This document shows, piece by piece, positions 52,779 through 64,000 of a DNA stretch of 64,000 bases. The notes beneath the pieces were generated by a model. That model did not search any database and was not told where the DNA came from. It worked only from the letters and a program-made list of their open reading frames with translations. Where the stretch lies: NCBI GenBank assembly GCA_023144005.1, contig JAGLGN010000032.1:5606-69605 (forward strand), given 5' to 3'. The stretch is from a bacterium (lineage in GTDB: Bacteria; AUK180). Every line of letters begins with the position of its first letter. Position 1 is the first letter of the stretch. The position numbers and the translations under genes are program-made.

Positions 52779-54682
52779 TTTTGGACCTTAACCACCGTAG
52801 GTTCATACCCGAATTCCATCATCATATCAGAAAATGGTGCTGCTTCGCTGGCCGAAGAATACGGGCCGGAATAGAGGATATAATTACTGCCGCTTTTTGA
52901 AATATAGAGTTTCTCAACGCCATAACTCTCCATCTCATCTTTCATATCATCAACAGTTGCCCTTGTCCCGGAAACGATCTTTATCTTGTATTCATAAACC
53001 ACTTTCTTGGCGGCAGCAGCACGACGGGCCTCATCTTCCTTGCGTTTTTTCTCCGCTGCGGCAGCGCGCCTTCTGTCATCGGCCGCTTTTTTATCTCTTG
53101 CCGCCTTGGCATCAGCGGCTTTCCTTCTGTCCAATTCCGCCTGAGCGTCAGTAGCTTTCTGTCTGTCCAGTTCCGCCTGAGCATCTAATTCTGCCTGTCT
53201 GTCCAGCTCCGCCTGAGCATCTAATTCTTTTTGCGTGTCCAGCTCCGTCTTAGCATCTAATTCTGTCTGTTCATCAAGCTCCGCCTGAGCATCTAATTCT
53301 GTCTGCCTTTCGAGTTCAGCCTGCCTTTCAGCTTCCGCTTTCTTTAGGGCTTTCTTATCTACTTTCGGCTTAGCTTCTTTCTTGATCTTCGGTGTTGAGG
53401 GGCCCGCAGGAAATCCGCCCTTCATAATAAGATATACGTTCGTGGCAAGCAGGATCACAATAAGGCCCATGAAGATATTTCTGAAGAGAATGCTTTGAAA
53501 ATAGAACTTTCTGGCCCCTTCCTTGATATCCTCGAAATCCTCTCCGGCATAAGTATCATTGTATATTCTTGAATGCAGGTATTTCTTTACCTTCTTGTCT
53601 CTCAGTCCCTTTTCCAGTTTTTTCCTTTCCTCGTCCAGGATCTCACTAAAACCAGAGTATTCCTTTCTCACTTTTTCGAGTTGGCCCATATCCTTATCAA
53701 GATCTTTTTTTAGATTGACGATCTCGCCTTTTTCCTTGGCAATATCAATCTTGATCGTTTTTACTTCTTCCAGCATTTCCTGGTACTTGGAATAGAAGTT
53801 CTTCATCCCGTCGAGAAATTTATCGTATGTACCTTCAAGTGGTTTCAACTTCTTATTGTATCCGTCGATAACGCCCAAACGCTTCTGAATCTCTGATTTT
53901 ACCGCATTGAAGTTCTGAACGATCTTCGTAATGCCGTTTTTCAATTCCTCTAATTTATCTTTCAATAATCGGTTCTGCTTCCCCAACTTCTCTATTTCAG
54001 GAGAGATCACATCCTTTTCCAAATACGAAGGCTCTACGCCGGTATTTTGCTGTACCTGGGATGGCTGATAAGTCTGCTGTTGTGCCGGAGCCGGAGTCTG
54101 CTGCATCATTTGAGCTGTTTTATCCACAGTGGTCGGCTCTTCCGAATCAAAACCCAATATGGCATCGATATCATCATCATTGAATCCGGCATTGGCAGCG
54201 GGCGGTGGTTCCTCTATATGCGATATTACTTCTGTCTTCATCGATTCTGCCGCAGAATTTGACGGATAATATTTCTTCAGGGCTTCGCTCAATGAGTGTT
54301 CTGATGTCACCAGAGGGTCAACCTTCAATCCTGTCATTGACTCTATCTTCGCCTTCAGGCTTTCATCAAGAGGGTCGATCATAACTATTGACAGGTTCGA
54401 TGCAAATTTATCCACTGGAAGTACTTTATTGGCAAGGCAGAAATCTTGCGGCATTATTTGAAGGACATTATCCGGGACATGGAAATTATTCAGATCAATG
54501 GTAGAAACTCCGAATTTATCGGTAAGGAATTTAAGAAGGATATCTTCTGTGATATATCCTAACTCCACCAGTATAGAGCCAACCTTCTTGCCGGATTGTT
54601 TCTGCACCTTCAATGCCTGCAAAAGCTCTTCCTTTTTTATGATGTTATTAATAACCAGCAGTTCGCCTAATTTCAATGCCAT
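52775..54682 (-). CDS. MshEN-coiled coil-TM-AELDxQ repeat-SPOR protein
   Basis: A 635-residue protein of mixed architecture. Residues 1-140 are a MshEN/GspE-N domain: KLGELLVINNIIKKEELLQAL and KVGSILVELGYITEDILLKFL are the tandem motifs that bind cyclic di-GMP in MshE-type proteins. A linker with DDDIDAILGFD (169-179) leads to a coiled coil (230-370) and one TM helix (about 402-420). About 90 residues of AELD[RA]Q-type repeats with Ala/Lys/Arg follow (TolA-like), and then a SPOR domain (about 560-635). No secretion ATPase domain is present. The topology puts the cyclic-di-GMP sensor in the cytoplasm and the peptidoglycan-binding domain in the periplasm. Confidence 0.85.
   Translation of the reverse strand: MALKLGELLVINNIIKKEELLQALKVQKQSGKKVGSILVELGYITEDILLKFLTDKFGVSTIDLNNFHVPDNVLQIMPQDFCLANKVLPVDKFASNLSIVMIDPLDESLKAKIESMTGLKVDPLVTSEHSLSEALKKYYPSNSAAESMKTEVISHIEEPPPAANAGFNDDDIDAILGFDSEEPTTVDKTAQMMQQTPAPAQQQTYQPSQVQQNTGVEPSYLEKDVISPEIEKLGKQNRLLKDKLEELKNGITKIVQNFNAVKSEIQKRLGVIDGYNKKLKPLEGTYDKFLDGMKNFYSKYQEMLEEVKTIKIDIAKEKGEIVNLKKDLDKDMGQLEKVRKEYSGFSEILDEERKKLEKGLRDKKVKKYLHSRIYNDTYAGEDFEDIKEGARKFYFQSILFRNIFMGLIVILLATNVYLIMKGGFPAGPSTPKIKKEAKPKVDKKALKKAEAERQAELERQTELDAQAELDEQTELDAKTELDTQKELDAQAELDRQAELDAQAELDRQKATDAQAELDRRKAADAKAARDKKAADDRRRAAAAEKKRKEDEARRAAAAKKVVYEYKIKIVSGTRATVDDMKDEMESYGVEKLYISKSGSNYILYSGPYSSASEAAPFSDMMMEFGYEPTVVKVQK
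53090..53340 (-). repeat. Degenerate 18-bp coding repeats (AELDxQ)
   Basis: About twelve in-frame, imperfect copies of an 18-base unit encoding [AT]ELD[RAET][QK], inside the MshEN-SPOR gene. Such tracts tend to change in copy number and probably encode a rigid periplasmic helix. Confidence 0.8.
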
Positions 54683-56946: not shown

Positions 56947-58692
56947 CTACTCAAAACCCTCGATCTTCATCATATTGTATTCCTGAAGCAGATGCGCGAA
57001 TTCACCCCAAAGTATTCTACTTTTAATAAGCTTCTTAATAATATTCTGAAGCTTGGCGTATGTGTGTGTCTCTTCAAGGTTCTTGAAACCGACTTCAATA
57101 AGTTTGTTGATCTCAACAAAGAAAAGGTATTGGATCACATTGGACATTCCCGGAGGCGAATCCCTGTTCTTGTCAATATGAAGATTGATCACATCGATCT
57201 TGGGTATTTTCTCACTCGGGATGCTCTTTGCCTTAGCGATCTCCCTCAACTGCTGCATCATTTCCTGTGTATCTCCCCAATCCTTGGTGAGTATCATACC
57301 AACATCAAGATCATATTCAATATCTCCGGAACCGGTGGTATTATGCATTGTAGGGCGCTCATAACTTTCTTTTTCATCAAGCTTACACCCTTCCCTGTCC
57401 AAGGAAGAGATCGCCCAGATCGGACAGTTCAAGGAAAGTGAGAGTTCAGAAAGGCCCGAAGATATCCTATTGATCCTGGTCTGAGGATCGGTGATATGAG
57501 ATTCCAGAGGCATCTTCTGAAGATAATCTATGAAGATCGCTATCTCATCTGTCTCAAATTCATGGAGGACATTGTAGGCATGAGATTCTATCCTTTCAAA
57601 ATTCTCTCTCTGACCGCCTTCGATCAGGAAAATATAGTTCATGAAAGCTTCTGTTGAATGCCATCCCTTTATGAATTTATTCTTGATAAGTTTATCTTCC
57701 ATGATATTCTTGGTCTGGAGCACGGTGGGATTCACCAAACTCTCTTTGGATAGAATTCTCAAAGTAAGAACGCGCTGCGTCTGTTCCCAGGAATAGTAAA
57801 GAACGGGGATCTTGTTTTGTGCAGCGACATGAGAGGCTATGGCAAGAGAGAAATTGGTCTTGCCCCTTCTGGGCGCGCCCAATAAACCGTAATAGAATCC
57901 CTTTCTCAAGCCGGAAAGTACCTTATTGAGTGTATTGAAGGGTTTTATGGAGTAACCCATCACTCCGTCCAGCAATTCTTCTTTTCTCGTTCTGATCTCA
58001 CTCTCCAATTCGTACAGATTGTATTTCATGGGCATGATAACTTCATGGAATTGCATCTTCTGCAGAGAGATCAGCTGATGCCCCAGTTTACCGGCAAAAT
58101 CAGCGACATCGATCTTATTTGATGATGTGGAGAGAAGATATTCCTCTATTTTTTCGCGAACTTCTTTCAGCTTATCCTTACCAGCCCTCATCTTCATGAT
58201 CTCAATATAAGTCATTACCTGCGAAAGCTGCGGTGGATCCACATTCCTTAATTTGGTGTAGAATTTCTGCATCTCAATGGTATAATAGTTACGAGGGATC
58301 AGTTCGTTCTTTATGGATTCATAATCAATGACCGAATCCTCTCTTTTACTGTCAAAGAACTCAAAGATGACATTACAGACTATTCTCGACAGTTTCGATC
58401 TCAGCAGAAACGGCTTGAAACCCTTTTCGATGGCGGTGGAGATCAGGAACCTATCCTGCAGGAAACCGGCGAGGATCTTTATTTCCTCTTCTTCATAGCT
58501 CTCCGTTTCCTCCGGGGATAAATATTCCTCTTCTTCCTCTATGATCGGCCTCTGCTCCTCTTTCTTTAAAACAGGAGCTTCTTCCTTCTTCTCTTCCTTT
58601 GCTTCACCCTTCTTAAGGGGATTATCCTTAATGAATTCCGCAAATAGATCTTCCGGATTGACCTTCTTCTTGTTATCTTTCTTCTCTTCCAT
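56947..58692 (-). CDS. DnaB-like RecA-fold helicase/ATPase
   Basis: A 581-residue protein. The N-terminal 70 residues are Lys/Glu-rich and disordered. A DnaB N-terminal-like helical domain follows (about 70-200), then a DnaB C-terminal RecA domain with Walker A GAPRRGKT (272-279), Walker B IAIFIDYLQKM and SGDIEYDLDVGMILT, the DnaB SGxIEYDAD-like motif. Differences from replicative DnaB are the charged head, the altered Walker A and the location between accB and accC. It could be a second, specialised helicase or a non-helicase DnaB relative. Confidence 0.82.
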   Translation of the reverse strand: MEEKKDNKKKVNPEDLFAEFIKDNPLKKGEAKEEKKEEAPVLKKEEQRPIIEEEEEYLSPEETESYEEEEIKILAGFLQDRFLISTAIEKGFKPFLLRSKLSRIVCNVIFEFFDSKREDSVIDYESIKNELIPRNYYTIEMQKFYTKLRNVDPPQLSQVMTYIEIMKMRAGKDKLKEVREKIEEYLLSTSSNKIDVADFAGKLGHQLISLQKMQFHEVIMPMKYNLYELESEIRTRKEELLDGVMGYSIKPFNTLNKVLSGLRKGFYYGLLGAPRRGKTNFSLAIASHVAAQNKIPVLYYSWEQTQRVLTLRILSKESLVNPTVLQTKNIMEDKLIKNKFIKGWHSTEAFMNYIFLIEGGQRENFERIESHAYNVLHEFETDEIAIFIDYLQKMPLESHITDPQTRINRISSGLSELSLSLNCPIWAISSLDREGCKLDEKESYERPTMHNTTGSGDIEYDLDVGMILTKDWGDTQEMMQQLREIAKAKSIPSEKIPKIDVINLHIDKNRDSPPGMSNVIQYLFFVEINKLIEVGFKNLEETHTYAKLQNIIKKLIKSRILWGEFAHLLQEYNMMKIEGFE

Positions 58693-59715: not shown

Positions 59716-60807
59716 CTAAATTATGGTCAGTTCTTTTGTTATCCCGGAGGACAATGCGACAGCACCGCCATCCGTGATCAAAAGATCGTCTTCAATTCGA
59801 ACGCCGAATTCATTTGGCAAATAGATCCCTGGTTCGTCAGTGAACACCATTCCCGGCTTAAGCCGCCCTCTTGCCGCGCGAGGCGAAAGCCAGGGTTGTT
59901 CATGAACCTCAAGCCCCAGGCCATGACCAAGGCTATGCGTAAAATATTTTCCGTATCCGGCTGATACGATCTCTTTTCTGGCGATCTCATCAACTTTCTT
60001 AAAGGATACATCCTTTTTGACTTTCTCTATAACGCTCTGATTAGCCCTTAGGACTGTGAGGTAAACCTCCTTCATCTTCTGAGTCGGTTGGCCCAGAAAA
60101 AAGGTACGGGTGATATCAGCATTGTAATGTTCATAAACAGCGCCGAAATCCAGAAGGATGATCTCTTTTTCCCTGCATTTAACATCACGGCTCGGTACAC
60201 CGTGAGGCAAAGAAGCTCTGGGGCCGAAAAGGCTAATTATCTCAAAGCCGGAACGCTCACCGCCCGCAGACTTGATCTGATATTCAAGTTCTGCTTCAAG
60301 ATCCTTTTCGGAAATGCCCGGCTTCACAGATTTTATTGTTTCATAGAACGCCTTTTCTGCGATTTCAACCGCTCTCGTTATCTTTGCTATTTCTTCATTG
60401 TCCTTGATCACCCTCAAAGGTGAAAGTAGGCCGGGAACCGGTTTCATCTTGATCTTTGAAAAGACCTTCCTCAGATTTCTGTAGCCGCTGTATGTGATCC
60501 GGTCGGGATCGAATATCACATTTTTCGGAGAAAGCTTTGACATTCTTTCCGCAATATCAGAGAATGCGGCCGCATAAGTTGAAGCAAGGATGACCTTGGC
60601 CTCTTGAATGCCCTTTTTGGCATCCTCAATATAGCGGGAATCGATATGAAGCTCGGCGTGATCAGGAAAAACAGCTAAAATGCCGTCTCCATCTTCACTG
60701 GAACGGAATCCCGTTAAATAAGTCCGGGAAACATTGTCCCTGAAAATAAATAACGAGTCCGGATAAAGCTTCCGGAGTTTGTCCAGGCGTCTCCTATAGT
60801 ATACCAT
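59716..60807 (-). CDS. pepP: Xaa-Pro aminopeptidase (M24B)
   Basis: A 363-residue metallopeptidase of the M24 'pita-bread' fold. Metal ligands are seen in LLDFGAVYEHYNADITRTF (two Asp), SLGHGLGLEVHE (His), FTDEPGIY (Glu) and VRIEDDLL (Glu). It removes N-terminal residues before proline. Overlaps the upstream gene by 14 bases and is followed by efp. Confidence 0.94.
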   Translation of the reverse strand: MVYYRRRLDKLRKLYPDSLFIFRDNVSRTYLTGFRSSEDGDGILAVFPDHAELHIDSRYIEDAKKGIQEAKVILASTYAAAFSDIAERMSKLSPKNVIFDPDRITYSGYRNLRKVFSKIKMKPVPGLLSPLRVIKDNEEIAKITRAVEIAEKAFYETIKSVKPGISEKDLEAELEYQIKSAGGERSGFEIISLFGPRASLPHGVPSRDVKCREKEIILLDFGAVYEHYNADITRTFFLGQPTQKMKEVYLTVLRANQSVIEKVKKDVSFKKVDEIARKEIVSAGYGKYFTHSLGHGLGLEVHEQPWLSPRAARGRLKPGMVFTDEPGIYLPNEFGVRIEDDLLITDGGAVALSSGITKELTII

Positions 60808-63454
60808 TGGTTTTTACTTTTTCCGAAAGGAACCTCATTATAGGAATAATGCTGGGTGAATGGATAAATGCCTCGCCTGCGAGGACAAGATATCCATATG
60901 TATCCTTGATGAAAAATGTTTTAATCCCACCAAGCGTAGCAGTGCCTTCCTGAACATCTTCGGCTGAAAGCAGAGAAGCCATCTCATTCTTTTTCTGCTG
61001 GATCTCCGCGAAAAGTGCGGCAAATTTATTGATATCAATATCGGAATCTCCTGTATCTGAAGAAATGATCAAACCGTCTTCGCTGACGATAAATACCATA
61101 TTCACTCCCTCAAAACCTTTGAGCTTAGACATGAGATCTTCGATAGATTCCAACTTTCCTCCAACTCTATTGGCCAGATACATAGGAATGGCAGAGACAG
61201 CCGTCTGCGGGCTGGATATAACAGCAGCGGGCTCTTCAACTGATTCCTCTTGCTGTATCTCGTCTACTATTTCTTCCTCGGCCTCAACTTCAAGCGATTC
61301 TTCCTCGACATCGTCCTCAGAAACCTCTTCTTCCACTTCCTCTTCTTCCACTTCCTCTTCTTCCACTTCCTCTTCTTCTTCTTCTTCTTCTTCTTCAGAA
61401 GAGTCGTCATATGATTCCTCTGCTTCTTCTTCCGCTTCTTCCTCTGGTTCTTCTGTCATCGTATCCTCAAGAAGCTCACCGGGTTTCTGATCGGGAGAAT
61501 ATATTACGGTTTCTTCAGATTCGCCGCCTTCAAAATCATCATCTTCATCAGATTCAGATGCCGCGAAGATCGAATCCAAGGCCTCATCAACCTCCTCTTC
61601 ATCATCTTCGTCCACCGTATCTTCATCTTCGGTTTCCTCAAGGTCTTCGTCCTGGGTATCTTCGATTATATCGCCCTCGGGAGAAAGCTCCTCTTCCAGA
61701 GTAACTTCATCATCATCAGAGGCGGCGAACACATTTTCCTCGTCCTCATCATCCTCGGAAACTTCCGCTTCCTCAGAAAGCTCAAGTTCTTCTTCGTCAC
61801 CGTCTTCTTCAGCAGCAATTTCTTCGGAGGGCTCTTCTGTGGCCTCCTCGTCATCAGTTTCATCTTCGTCTGTGACTTTGTCAAAGAGATCCTCATCGTC
61901 GGCATCCTCATCCTCGGATTCTTCGCTTGCGAAGATATCTTCCTCTGCTACTTCTTCTTCTGTTACTTCTTCTTCTTCAACTACTTCTTCATCCTCTTCC
62001 GGTTCTTCTTCTACTGATTCTTCGTCTGCCGTTTCTTCCTCTATTTCTAACTCTTCGTCTACTTCTTCATCCTCTGTTTCTTCTTTCGGTTCTTCTACTT
62101 CCGATTCTTCTTCCGCCGGTTCTTCCACATCCGCTTCTATTTCTTCATCTGATCCGAATATATCCTCTAAAGCGTCATCTTCTTCAGAAACTTCATCCTC
62201 TTCTGAAAAGAGATCTTCCGCTTCAACACTCTCTTCTTCAGAGGATCCGTCAGCTTCGTCTTCTCCAAAAAGAGCGTCTACATTCTCTTCCGCTTCTTCT
62301 TCCACTTCTGTATCGGAGGGCTCTTCGTCCTCTATAATATCTTCAATATCTCCTGCTGACACTTCTGCTGAATCTTCATCCGCTCCAAAAATATCCTCGA
62401 TATCATCTTCTTCGCTATCCTTTGACTCTTCAGCCGTATCGGGAGAAGCAAAAATATCATCTTCCGCGTCTTCACTTGAACCTTCACCGAAGATATCATC
62501 GAATGCTTCGTCAGAAGAGGGGGCTTCGGGAGTGGATGAGAAGACATCCTTTTTTGAATCATCCGAACTTTCGGGATCTGCTCCAAAGATATCATCAAAT
62601 GCGTCGTCGCCTTTACCGGCCGCGTCCTTATCGCCGCTATCGGTTTCAGTATCGTCCTGATCTGTAACATCATCACTGGCTTCTTCTTCGAAAATATCGC
62701 CGAAGTCACCTTCCTCGGATGCGGCCTGCTCTTCCTTTGGGGCTTCATCAGAACCAAAGATATCGTCAAAACCGCCATCGGCATCCGCAGCTTCTTCCGG
62801 TTCATCACCTTCATCAAAGAGGTCAGCGAATTTATCCTCTACATCATCACCCTCGGCTTCGTCTCCCTCATCCTCAGGTGATTCAAGGTGCTGCAGCATA
62901 TCTTTCGCCTCTTCGTTATCAGCGTCATTGCTCAATATTTTCTCCAGGATCTCCTTTGCCTTATCTTCTTTACCCTTCTCCTCGTACAATCGGGCATTGG
63001 CAACGGTGTAGATCTCGGCATCTGAGGATTCTTCGGGTTCATCGCCCTTTTCAGAAACCTTTGCGCGGAGTTCCTTCAATTCCTCTTCAACCAGCTCATC
63101 ATCCGGATTCTCTTCATAAATAACCTCAAGATGCTTCAAGGCATCTGAAAGGTTGCCCATCTCTTTATAGACACGGGCGATCTGTTGATTCGCCATGTAA
63201 TGGGTGGGTTTATTCTCAAGGATCTTCAGGAATACCTCTTCCGCGTCTTCCAATTGGGCAGCTTCTATCAGCACCTTTCCCTTGACAAGCATTGTCTTAA
63301 GATCACCGGGAAATTCTTCCAGGCATTCATCGGCATACTTAACAGCATTTTCATAATCTTCGCCTTGTCTGTAGTTTTCAATAAGCTTTGAGTAATTTCT
63401 CGGAGAGGGGTCTCCCCTTACAAGGTCGAGCAGATTTTGGAGTTCTTCGTTCAT
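60794..63454 (-). CDS. Very acidic TPR-DIFG repeat-roadblock protein
   Basis: An 886-residue protein in three parts. Residues 1-200 hold about four TPRs (YENAVKYADECLEEFPGD, NLSDALKHLEVIYEENPDD). Residues 200-750 are almost wholly Asp/Glu/Ser/Ala/Val, with about fourteen short motifs of the type [FIL]-x-D-[IL]-F-[GA]-[SAE] (FDDIFGSDE, FDDIFGADP, FDDIFGEG, IEDIFGADE, LEDIFGSDE, EEDIFASEE). The last 120 residues (AIPMYLANRVGGKLESIEDL, MVFIVSEDGLIISSDTGDSD) form a roadblock/LC7 domain as in MglB. I know no family with this whole architecture. First gene of the 21-kb minus-strand run; AGGGGG precedes the ATG. Confidence 0.85.
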   Translation of the reverse strand: MNEELQNLLDLVRGDPSPRNYSKLIENYRQGEDYENAVKYADECLEEFPGDLKTMLVKGKVLIEAAQLEDAEEVFLKILENKPTHYMANQQIARVYKEMGNLSDALKHLEVIYEENPDDELVEEELKELRAKVSEKGDEPEESSDAEIYTVANARLYEEKGKEDKAKEILEKILSNDADNEEAKDMLQHLESPEDEGDEAEGDDVEDKFADLFDEGDEPEEAADADGGFDDIFGSDEAPKEEQAASEEGDFGDIFEEEASDDVTDQDDTETDSGDKDAAGKGDDAFDDIFGADPESSDDSKKDVFSSTPEAPSSDEAFDDIFGEGSSEDAEDDIFASPDTAEESKDSEEDDIEDIFGADEDSAEVSAGDIEDIIEDEEPSDTEVEEEAEENVDALFGEDEADGSSEEESVEAEDLFSEEDEVSEEDDALEDIFGSDEEIEADVEEPAEEESEVEEPKEETEDEEVDEELEIEEETADEESVEEEPEEDEEVVEEEEVTEEEVAEEDIFASEESEDEDADDEDLFDKVTDEDETDDEEATEEPSEEIAAEEDGDEEELELSEEAEVSEDDEDEENVFAASDDDEVTLEEELSPEGDIIEDTQDEDLEETEDEDTVDEDDEEEVDEALDSIFAASESDEDDDFEGGESEETVIYSPDQKPGELLEDTMTEEPEEEAEEEAEESYDDSSEEEEEEEEEEVEEEEVEEEEVEEEVSEDDVEEESLEVEAEEEIVDEIQQEESVEEPAAVISSPQTAVSAIPMYLANRVGGKLESIEDLMSKLKGFEGVNMVFIVSEDGLIISSDTGDSDIDINKFAALFAEIQQKKNEMASLLSAEDVQEGTATLGGIKTFFIKDTYGYLVLAGEAFIHSPSIIPIMRFLSEKVKTNGIL

Positions 63455-63484
63455 ATAGGCCCCCTAAAAGGTTTATTATTATTT

Positions 63485-63513
63485 ATTATATACGATATCA
63501 TGCGACAAGTCAA
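63485..63513 (-). promoter_or_regulatory. Promoter of the roadblock-pepP-efp-acc run
   Basis: Minus strand: -35 TTGACT (63513-63508), 17-base spacer, -10 TATAAT (63490-63485). Predicted start near 63478, about 24 bases before the ATG with AGGGGG between. Confidence 0.8.
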
Positions 63514-63543
63514 GTATTACAGGGATATTTCCCTTTATTTTCT

Positions 63544-63578
63544 AGTGTGCTCTAATTCATAAATCCGATGACAATGAC
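63544..63578. repeat. Repeat end related to the 42223-42366 element
   Basis: AGTGTGCTCTAATTCATAAA followed by ATGACAATG matches the left end of the 144-bp element (AGTGTCCTGATTCATAAA, then ATGACAATG) with a two-base insertion and few changes. The opposite arm is not found in the remaining 420 bases. Confidence 0.6.
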
Positions 63579-63627
63579 GCTTCGCAGTGGACCCAGTGGA
63601 CCCAGGGACAAGTGTACCAGTGGAGAA
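63577..63627 (-). repeat. Dispersed intergenic repeat, copy 2 (inverted relative to 37221-37272)
   Basis: The reverse complement reads CCACTGGTACACTTGTCCCT, GGGTCCACTGGGTCCACTG and CGAAGCG, the same phrases as at 37221-37272. Confidence 0.7.
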
Positions 63628-63658
63628 GGAATATTGTGAGAACCGGTAAGTATTATAT

Positions 63659-63793
63659 TTGTCATTCTGAAAGAGCGGTAGCGACTGAAGAATCCATCTC
63701 TTCGAGGTACGGGGTACGAAGTGCGCAGTGGGGAAAAGTCGGGATGAAATAAAACTGGATCCCACGGTCGCCAACTCCCTCTGGATGACACTC
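63659..63793. repeat. Inverted pair of about 35-bp repeats
   Basis: GTCATTCTGAAAGAGCGGTA at about 63661 and the reverse complement of about 63757-63791 (GTCATCCAGAGGGAGTTGGC) are diverged copies of one unit in opposite orientation. Both resemble common intergenic palindromic repeats in bacteria. Confidence 0.5.
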
Positions 63794-64000
63794 TCCACTT
63801 CTATATTTTCCCTCCCGCATCCGCTCAACGGGAGCCCGGCAGCGCCGGGCGACCAACCCAAAAGAGTTTTGAACCATTTAAGCGACATTGACATTTTTAA
63901 CGGCAGGAATGAATGGTGGCGAAGCCGAAAATATCCAATTGTCTGAGTGAGCGTTCGTTAGAGCTTTTAGAGGCGGGAACGAATGTTCGAGGAAAAATGA
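63794..64000. other. Non-coding right end of the window
   Basis: No gene supported. Contains GGGAGCCCGGCAGCGCCGGGCG (a GC-rich CCCGGC/GCCGGG hairpin near 63833-63849) and unrelated AT-rich sequence. Confidence 0.5.

Follow-up and report, generated by a model that had tools for sequence, protein, structure and literature searches.

A TPR and roadblock protein of Candidatus Mcinerneyibacteriota with repeated MglB-tail-like motifs, a candidate docking scaffold for MglA

The polarity of type IV pili is a known output of the Ras-like GTPase MglA, and the MglB tail is so far known as a single regulatory helix on MglA. In Myxococcus xanthus, MglB residues 147-157 form this helix, which contacts bound MglA through D154-K185 and F157-K181 (PMC6785124). 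The pocket that receives it is made up of alpha5 (K181, K185) and the beta2-beta3 loop, where L64 and I67 are within interacting distance of the helix (PMC6785124). The helix stimulates nucleotide exchange and is required for correct polarity (PMC6785124; PMC11016934). It can be functionally replaced by a Glu-rich helix of RomR (PMC6785124), and unknown factors that separate the two activities of MglB have been postulated (PMC11016934). In the same bacterium, SgmX directs type IV pili (PMC7519303).

Here we describe a protein in which the MglB tail is possibly multiplied on a separate scaffold. It is encoded by an open reading frame (ORF) of 886 aa with an ATG start, at 60794-63454 on the minus strand of a 64,000-nucleotide stretch of contig JAGLGN010000032.1 (positions 5,606 to 69,605, assembly GCA_023144005.1), which we refer to as the window. 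The host genome is 2.67 Mb and 96% complete, and its class comprises seven genomes in our dataset. The protein consists of a tetratricopeptide repeat (TPR) head, an acidic disordered region and a roadblock tail. With moderate confidence, we read it as a scaffold for multivalent docking within the MglA/MglB polarity module. The reading is built on the anatomy of the protein, the excess of repeats and their persistence across genera, the register shared with the MglB tail, the motif at both local MglB C-termini, the pocket residues of MglA, and the presence of mglA and pilus ATPase genes.

Domain architecture and the acidic motif array

A TPR head and a roadblock/LC7 tail on either side of the acidic region had been proposed by an earlier, sequence-only reading of the window, and Pfam finds both: TPR at about residues 20-180 (TPR_19, E = 3.7e-15) and Robl_LC7 at residues 771-836 (E = 8.1e-6, 25.9 bits at a cut-off of 23). 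AlphaFold2 predicts 11 helices in the TPR head, with a predicted local distance difference test score (pLDDT) mostly of 87-97 outside the 138-146 linker. The model is that of a confident fold of the generic peptide-binding superhelix type. The best structural match of the roadblock tail in Foldseek is M. xanthus MglB (6h5b_C, E 7.1e-7, TM 0.79 on target). All motifs are N-terminal of the roadblock fold, and the family orthologues stop right after it, with (N/D)GIL before the stop codon. The last 14 bases of the gene (60794-60807) are shared with the start of pepQ, and the conserved terminal [ND]GIL may come from this coding overlap rather than from protein function.

Between these domains, 293 of 575 residues are D or E (51%), with 1 R and 10 K, and pLDDT is mostly <50 in the modelled parts. 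A helix is predicted with low confidence at the LDSIFAA copy of the motif; the remainder of the region is unfolded in the AlphaFold2 models. The motif is far in excess of what composition would give. D[IL]FG occurs 5 times, where 0.007 are expected from shuffles. [DE][IL]F[GADESK] occurs 11 times (shuffle mean 0.54, maximum 4 in 5000 shuffles), and Φ..[ILV]F, with Φ for a hydrophobic residue, 9 times (0.43 expected; 0/3000 shuffles reach 9). A strict pattern has 6 matches in the 575 aa of the region and 0 in the 19,102 aa of the other window proteins. The acidity, the low pLDDT and this excess together bear out the description of the region as Asp/Glu-rich and disordered with repeated motifs. 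The count of about 14 given with that description stands only for a relaxed motif, of which there are 15 [ILV]F anchors; [FIL]xD[IL]F[GA], the motif as it was written, occurs 5 times. The claim of regular spacing did not hold for this protein. Spacings are 13-75 residues with a coefficient of variation (CV) of 0.63, not significantly more regular than random placement (P = 0.22). They are tighter in the orthologues of genomes G004 (CV 0.29) and G005 (CV 0.39).

Pooling 69 anchors from diverged orthologues, with G001 excluded, gave the consensus Φ-[DE]-D-[IL]-F-[GAS]. Position -4 is hydrophobic in 59% of the anchors (background 17.8%, p = 1.4e-14), -3 and -2 are acidic in 70% and 84%, mostly E then D, and I/L/V at -1 and F at 0 are followed by G/A/S in 70%. 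Hydrophobics are nearly absent at -3, -2 and +1. Judged from sequence, the hydrophobic i, i+3, i+4 pattern is that of a short amphipathic helix. [ILV]F anchors in the other window proteins have no excess of hydrophobics at -4 (0.35 vs 0.33), and the motif is therefore not a by-product of ordinary helices.

The end of M. xanthus MglB, SDDDIDNLFS, has the motif in the register I-D-N-L-F-S, and MglB-type tails from many other lineages read DDDIDNLFSE, DEDIENLFSE or EERLDQIFGD. When aligned on the F, MglB D150-D151-D152-I153-D154-N155-L156-F157 corresponds to E-D-D-I-E-D-I-F of the candidate scaffold (residues 349-356). As aligned, the motif matches the MglB C-terminal helix register for register.

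Orthologues with repeats are found in five genera of Candidatus Mcinerneyibacteriota, one of them at class distance. Genomes G001-G005 encode full or split orthologues within the same operon; no match was found in G006, which is 72% complete. The TPR heads of different genera share 54-60% identity, which falls to 34% at class distance. The acidic region is hardly alignable among orthologues, but the motifs are retained even between unalignable linkers. Their count is above that of every shuffle in 6/7 orthologue pieces, although their number and positions differ. Loss of the motifs under retained acidity, which the sequence-only reading had named as the result that would speak against it, is not what the orthologues show: the motifs are conserved. 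A scan of 84,980 species' genomes with the whole protein turned up no relative. An alignment search with the TPR head returned only class members and generic TPR proteins, as was likewise the case for 60 relatives. The parts are of known kinds, i.e., TPR, roadblock, MglB-type docking helix and MglA. Sequence searches outside the phylum and the literature searched yielded no case in which they are combined as a multivalent array.

MglA, its MglB paralogues and the case for docking

A search for mglA, suggested along with the early proposal that the roadblock domain points to an MglA-type GTPase, gave candidates in 7/7 class genomes. Six are clear; in G005, a long frame with a weak match to Arf is the only candidate. 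The host mglA shares contig C22 with two further roadblock genes. In the four family genera with a complete operon, a roadblock gene stands on each side of mglA, and a DUF4388 gene follows. By sequence, the two flanking roadblock proteins are true MglB paralogues, encoded apart from the candidate scaffold. Both carry the motif at the C-terminus in every genome read. The first ends in LDDIF, LDDLF or IDDLF (as in IDDLDDIF, VDDLDDLF and IDDIDDLF) and the second in L[EDN][NKD]LFNW (e.g., SDEDLENLFNW), each directly before the stop codon. MglA itself is 69-81% identical across genera and matches M. xanthus MglA with E = 2.8e-76. It retains I67 (invariant), K68 and the catalytic R53 and Q82, with F or L at 64. 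Positions 181/185 are K/K or K/R in sequences with a complete alpha5; that of G006 is cut short. The helix pocket (K181, K185, L64, I67) is conserved in the local MglA. The proposed link to an MglA-type GTPase is strengthened by the presence of mglA and by the motif at both MglB C-termini; direct binding is inferred from the resemblance of the motif. All class genomes also encode PilB/PilT-type ATPases, several per genome, and type IV pilus polarity is therefore a plausible target.

In a multivalent docking scaffold, each Φ-[DE]-D-[IL]-F-[GAS] repeat would turn helical upon contact, giving a short amphipathic helix similar to that of the MglB tail. In MglA, alpha5 and the beta2-beta3 loop form the allosteric pocket in which this helix would dock, and the acidic surroundings would add electrostatic pull to this basic pocket. 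About 15 weak sites per chain would concentrate or buffer MglA. The array might favour the GTP form, because the MglB helix stimulates nucleotide exchange. The roadblock tail would serve for dimerisation or bring the MglB paralogues to the array, which the TPR head would tether to a fixed partner, e.g., the type IV pilus or envelope machinery. The sequence-only reading had offered multivalent docking sites or a condensate scaffold; motif statistics and likeness to the MglB tail make docking the best reading, with binding itself our inference. The sequence is also compatible with a condensate. We put forward more tentatively, and lean against, a bolder version, in which tandem helices like the tail of a GTPase-activating protein (GAP) bind many Ras-like GTPases at once and so create a polar MglA cluster with raised nucleotide exchange. 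Eukaryotic hubs use short linear motifs for multivalent capture, but we know of no multivalent small-GTPase hub of such kind in any bacterium. Should the MglB-tail motif have become an array on a scaffold of its own, polarity in this phylum would depend on capturing a Ras-like GTPase multivalently. The motif would also become a search term for MglA partners generally, and an MshEN-domain protein of the same operon already carries one conserved copy, an MshEN-type protein of a Myxococcus-like genome a similar string.

Several observations weigh against docking on MglA. The gene of the candidate scaffold is not adjacent to mglA, and the motif that matches the MglB tail is five residues long. A matrix built from foreign MglB tails recognises 2/15 sites above threshold because the foreign tails mostly have N, and the array D, at -2; this matrix, which uses a disordered-region background, is badly normalised and rewards N, H, K and hydrophobics, and it was not used as support. 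Between G000 and G001, which are 95% identical, 5/90 motif positions changed vs 30/455 in the rest of the region (p = 1.0). The closest pair thus has no significant motif constraint, and the argument from conservation rests on the distant comparison. Finally, a Myxococcus-like protein has DDEFDDLFG beyond its apparent membrane segment, on the side that MglA cannot reach. The string alone is therefore not specific and is no proof of MglA binding. That protein (G034:C29:167500-171500, plus strand) is a zinc-ribbon protein that we take to resemble GltJ; DDEFDDLFG is C-terminal of its membrane segment, and DEIGAVF is in its cytoplasmic linker.

The repeats could instead dock the roadblock dimer (MglB1, MglB2 or the protein's own tail) or the TPR head; the scaffold would then self-associate in a condensate-like manner and make no direct contact with MglA. 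All three roadblock proteins found in the genome bear the motif, and the TPR head has a confidently predicted fold of a peptide-binding type. We nevertheless consider self-docking unlikely, since the M. xanthus tail motif binds MglA and not the roadblock dimer (PMC6785124), and since AlphaFold2 of residues 1-300 leaves the motifs unstructured at low confidence, with no intramolecular docking seen.

The N-terminal motif of FliM is a similar short acidic amphipathic helix, and another partner, such as a CheY-like receiver domain, might bind the repeats in the style of the FliM/FliN N-terminal helix (EIDALL type). The DDDIDAILGF variant in the MshEN protein does resemble a FliM-type motif. Such a partner appears rather improbable, as no link of the candidate scaffold or its operon to receivers was seen and as both MglB paralogues encoded in the mglA operon end in the motif.

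The array could also act as a sink or competitor for MglA. By keeping the MglB tails off the pocket, it would turn MglB from a GAP and exchange factor into a GAP only, without clustering. Many motif copies would out-compete one tail, and factors by which the two MglB activities are separated have been proposed (PMC11016934). We regard a sink as improbable; its first step is common to multivalent docking, and its stoichiometry and localisation are presumed. That the repeats bind nothing specifically and arose by drift in low-complexity sequence is very improbable: the region is glutamate-rich and length-variable (there are gaps between G000 and G001), and some copies in G002 and G005 resemble local duplications, but drift would not account for a motif count above every shuffle in nearly all orthologue pieces, for the enrichment at -4 (about p = 1e-14) that the same anchor lacks elsewhere in the window, or for motifs that outlast their linkers.

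Operon, genome-wide motif search and feature coordinates

The operon of the candidate scaffold has pepQ, efp, accB and accC. In G001-G005, it includes pepQ, efp, a DnaB-like ATPase and accC. Where the contig reaches further, a small TPR protein, the MshEN protein and a clostripain-like peptidase are present; accB was read in G005. The MshEN protein had been described as an MshEN-SPOR protein with one similar motif. The motif is real and conserved, DDDID[AS]ILGFD being kept across three genera (variants DDDIDSILGF, DDIDSILGF) and MDEIDTILGF found in a fourth, but a SPOR domain was undetected by Pfam at E<=0.01. The MshEN-type protein of the Myxococcus-like genome (G034:C32:137500-141500, minus strand) has LDDLDYLFGQ in a linker, which parallels the DDDIDAILGF of the window. 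The DnaB_C-domain protein at 56947-58692 scores 120.7 vs 385 bits, far under the NCBIfam DnaB cut-offs. By sequence comparison, it is a divergent DnaB-like ATPase conserved in the accC/efp operon of all genera. Its N-terminus has an island, [NK]P[ED][DE]LFAEF (58633-58656), in a variable charged stretch. The island is conserved in all genera including G005, and is possibly another docking motif.

Upstream of the candidate scaffold, a purine-rich, ribosome-binding-like AGGGGG is just 5′ of the ATG. A dispersed intergenic repeat of ~210 bp is located at 63742-63953 (within 63470-63960). A 491-base query with this repeat had 46 matches in the genome; many of these are 88-97% identical, and several lie at the ends of contigs.

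A proteome-wide count of the motif was replaced by a DNA-pattern search of the genome, and this search, which is not exhaustive, found no second motif-rich protein. Loose pattern matches were swamped by chance and codon bias. Acid-flanked matches were rejected, as they mainly resemble the ESELFGY/H motif of sigma-54 activators, and the in-frame matches that we checked are mostly inside apparently folded proteins.

Table 1. Coordinates in the window of the candidate scaffold, its parts and associated features.
Feature	Residues	Positions	Strand	Basis or remark
Sigma-70-like promoter TTGACT-17-TATAAT		63485..63513	minus	11/12 matches; directly upstream of the gene
TPR / acidic disordered / roadblock protein (candidate scaffold), operon's first gene	886 aa	60794..63454	minus	ORF, Pfam, orthologues
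TPR head	1-191	62882..63454	minus	Pfam; AlphaFold2; TPR fold match
Acidic low-confidence (disordered) region, 15 [ILV]F anchors	about 191/192-765	61160..62881	minus	composition, motif statistics, pLDDT
Motif 1 FADLF	209-213	62816..62830	minus	only one at a conserved position across family orthologues, [VI]EDKF[AST]DLF
Motif 2 FDDIF(G)	229-233	62756..62770	minus	
Motif 3 FGDIF	251-255	62690..62704	minus	
Motif 4 FDDIF(G)	286-290	62585..62599	minus	
Degenerate anchor 5 KKDVF	301-305	62540..62554	minus	
Motif 6 FDDIF(G)	318-322	62489..62503	minus	
Motif 7 EDDIF(A)	331-335	62450..62464	minus	
Motif 8 IEDIF(G)	352-356	62387..62401	minus	with flank EDDIEDIF vs M. xanthus MglB DDDIDNLF
Motif 9 VDALF(G)	392-396	62267..62281	minus	
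Motif 10 AEDLF(S)	412-416	62207..62221	minus	
Motif 11 LEDIF(G)	429-433	62156..62170	minus	
Motif 12 EEDIF(A)	504-508	61931..61945	minus	
Motif 13 DEDLF	520-524	61883..61897	minus	
Degenerate anchor 14 EENVF(A)	572-576	61727..61741	minus	
Motif 15 LDSIF(A)	626-630	61565..61579	minus	short helix predicted
Roadblock/LC7 domain, C-terminal	766-886	60797..61159	minus	Pfam, Foldseek, profile search
Single motif DDDIDAILGF in the MshEN-domain protein, same operon	169-178	54149..54178	minus	conserved island, variable linker

Comparison with described polarity proteins

The array is most directly compared with the C-terminal helix of M. xanthus MglB (PDB 6IZW; PMC6785124). Both have the Φ-[DE]-x-[IL]-F register with N-terminal acid, and the receptor pocket is conserved in the MglA of the class. 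MglB, however, has one copy at its extreme C-terminus, whereas the candidate scaffold has about 15, all internal and spread over a long disordered region; these have D at -2 in place of N, and the F is usually followed by G/A/S. Like MglB and MglC, it has a Roadblock/LC7 domain, the one for which Foldseek gives M. xanthus MglB as best match. Unlike in those proteins, the domain is the last one, lacks a motif tail, is fused to a TPR domain and an acidic array, and is encoded outside the mglA operon.

SgmX of M. xanthus and Bd2492 of Bdellovibrio are cytoplasmic TPR proteins shown to bind MglA, and the candidate scaffold shares a TPR domain with them. SgmX carries TPRs at either end, and a roadblock domain has not been described in it; the likeness drawn here is one of domains. 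RomR of M. xanthus is a polarity protein that, like the array, is disordered, and its Glu-rich helix can stand in for the MglB helix on MglA (PMC6785124). RomR combines a receiver domain with a single helix, whereas the protein described here has no Response_reg (receiver domain) match in Pfam and carries its helix-like motif in many copies.

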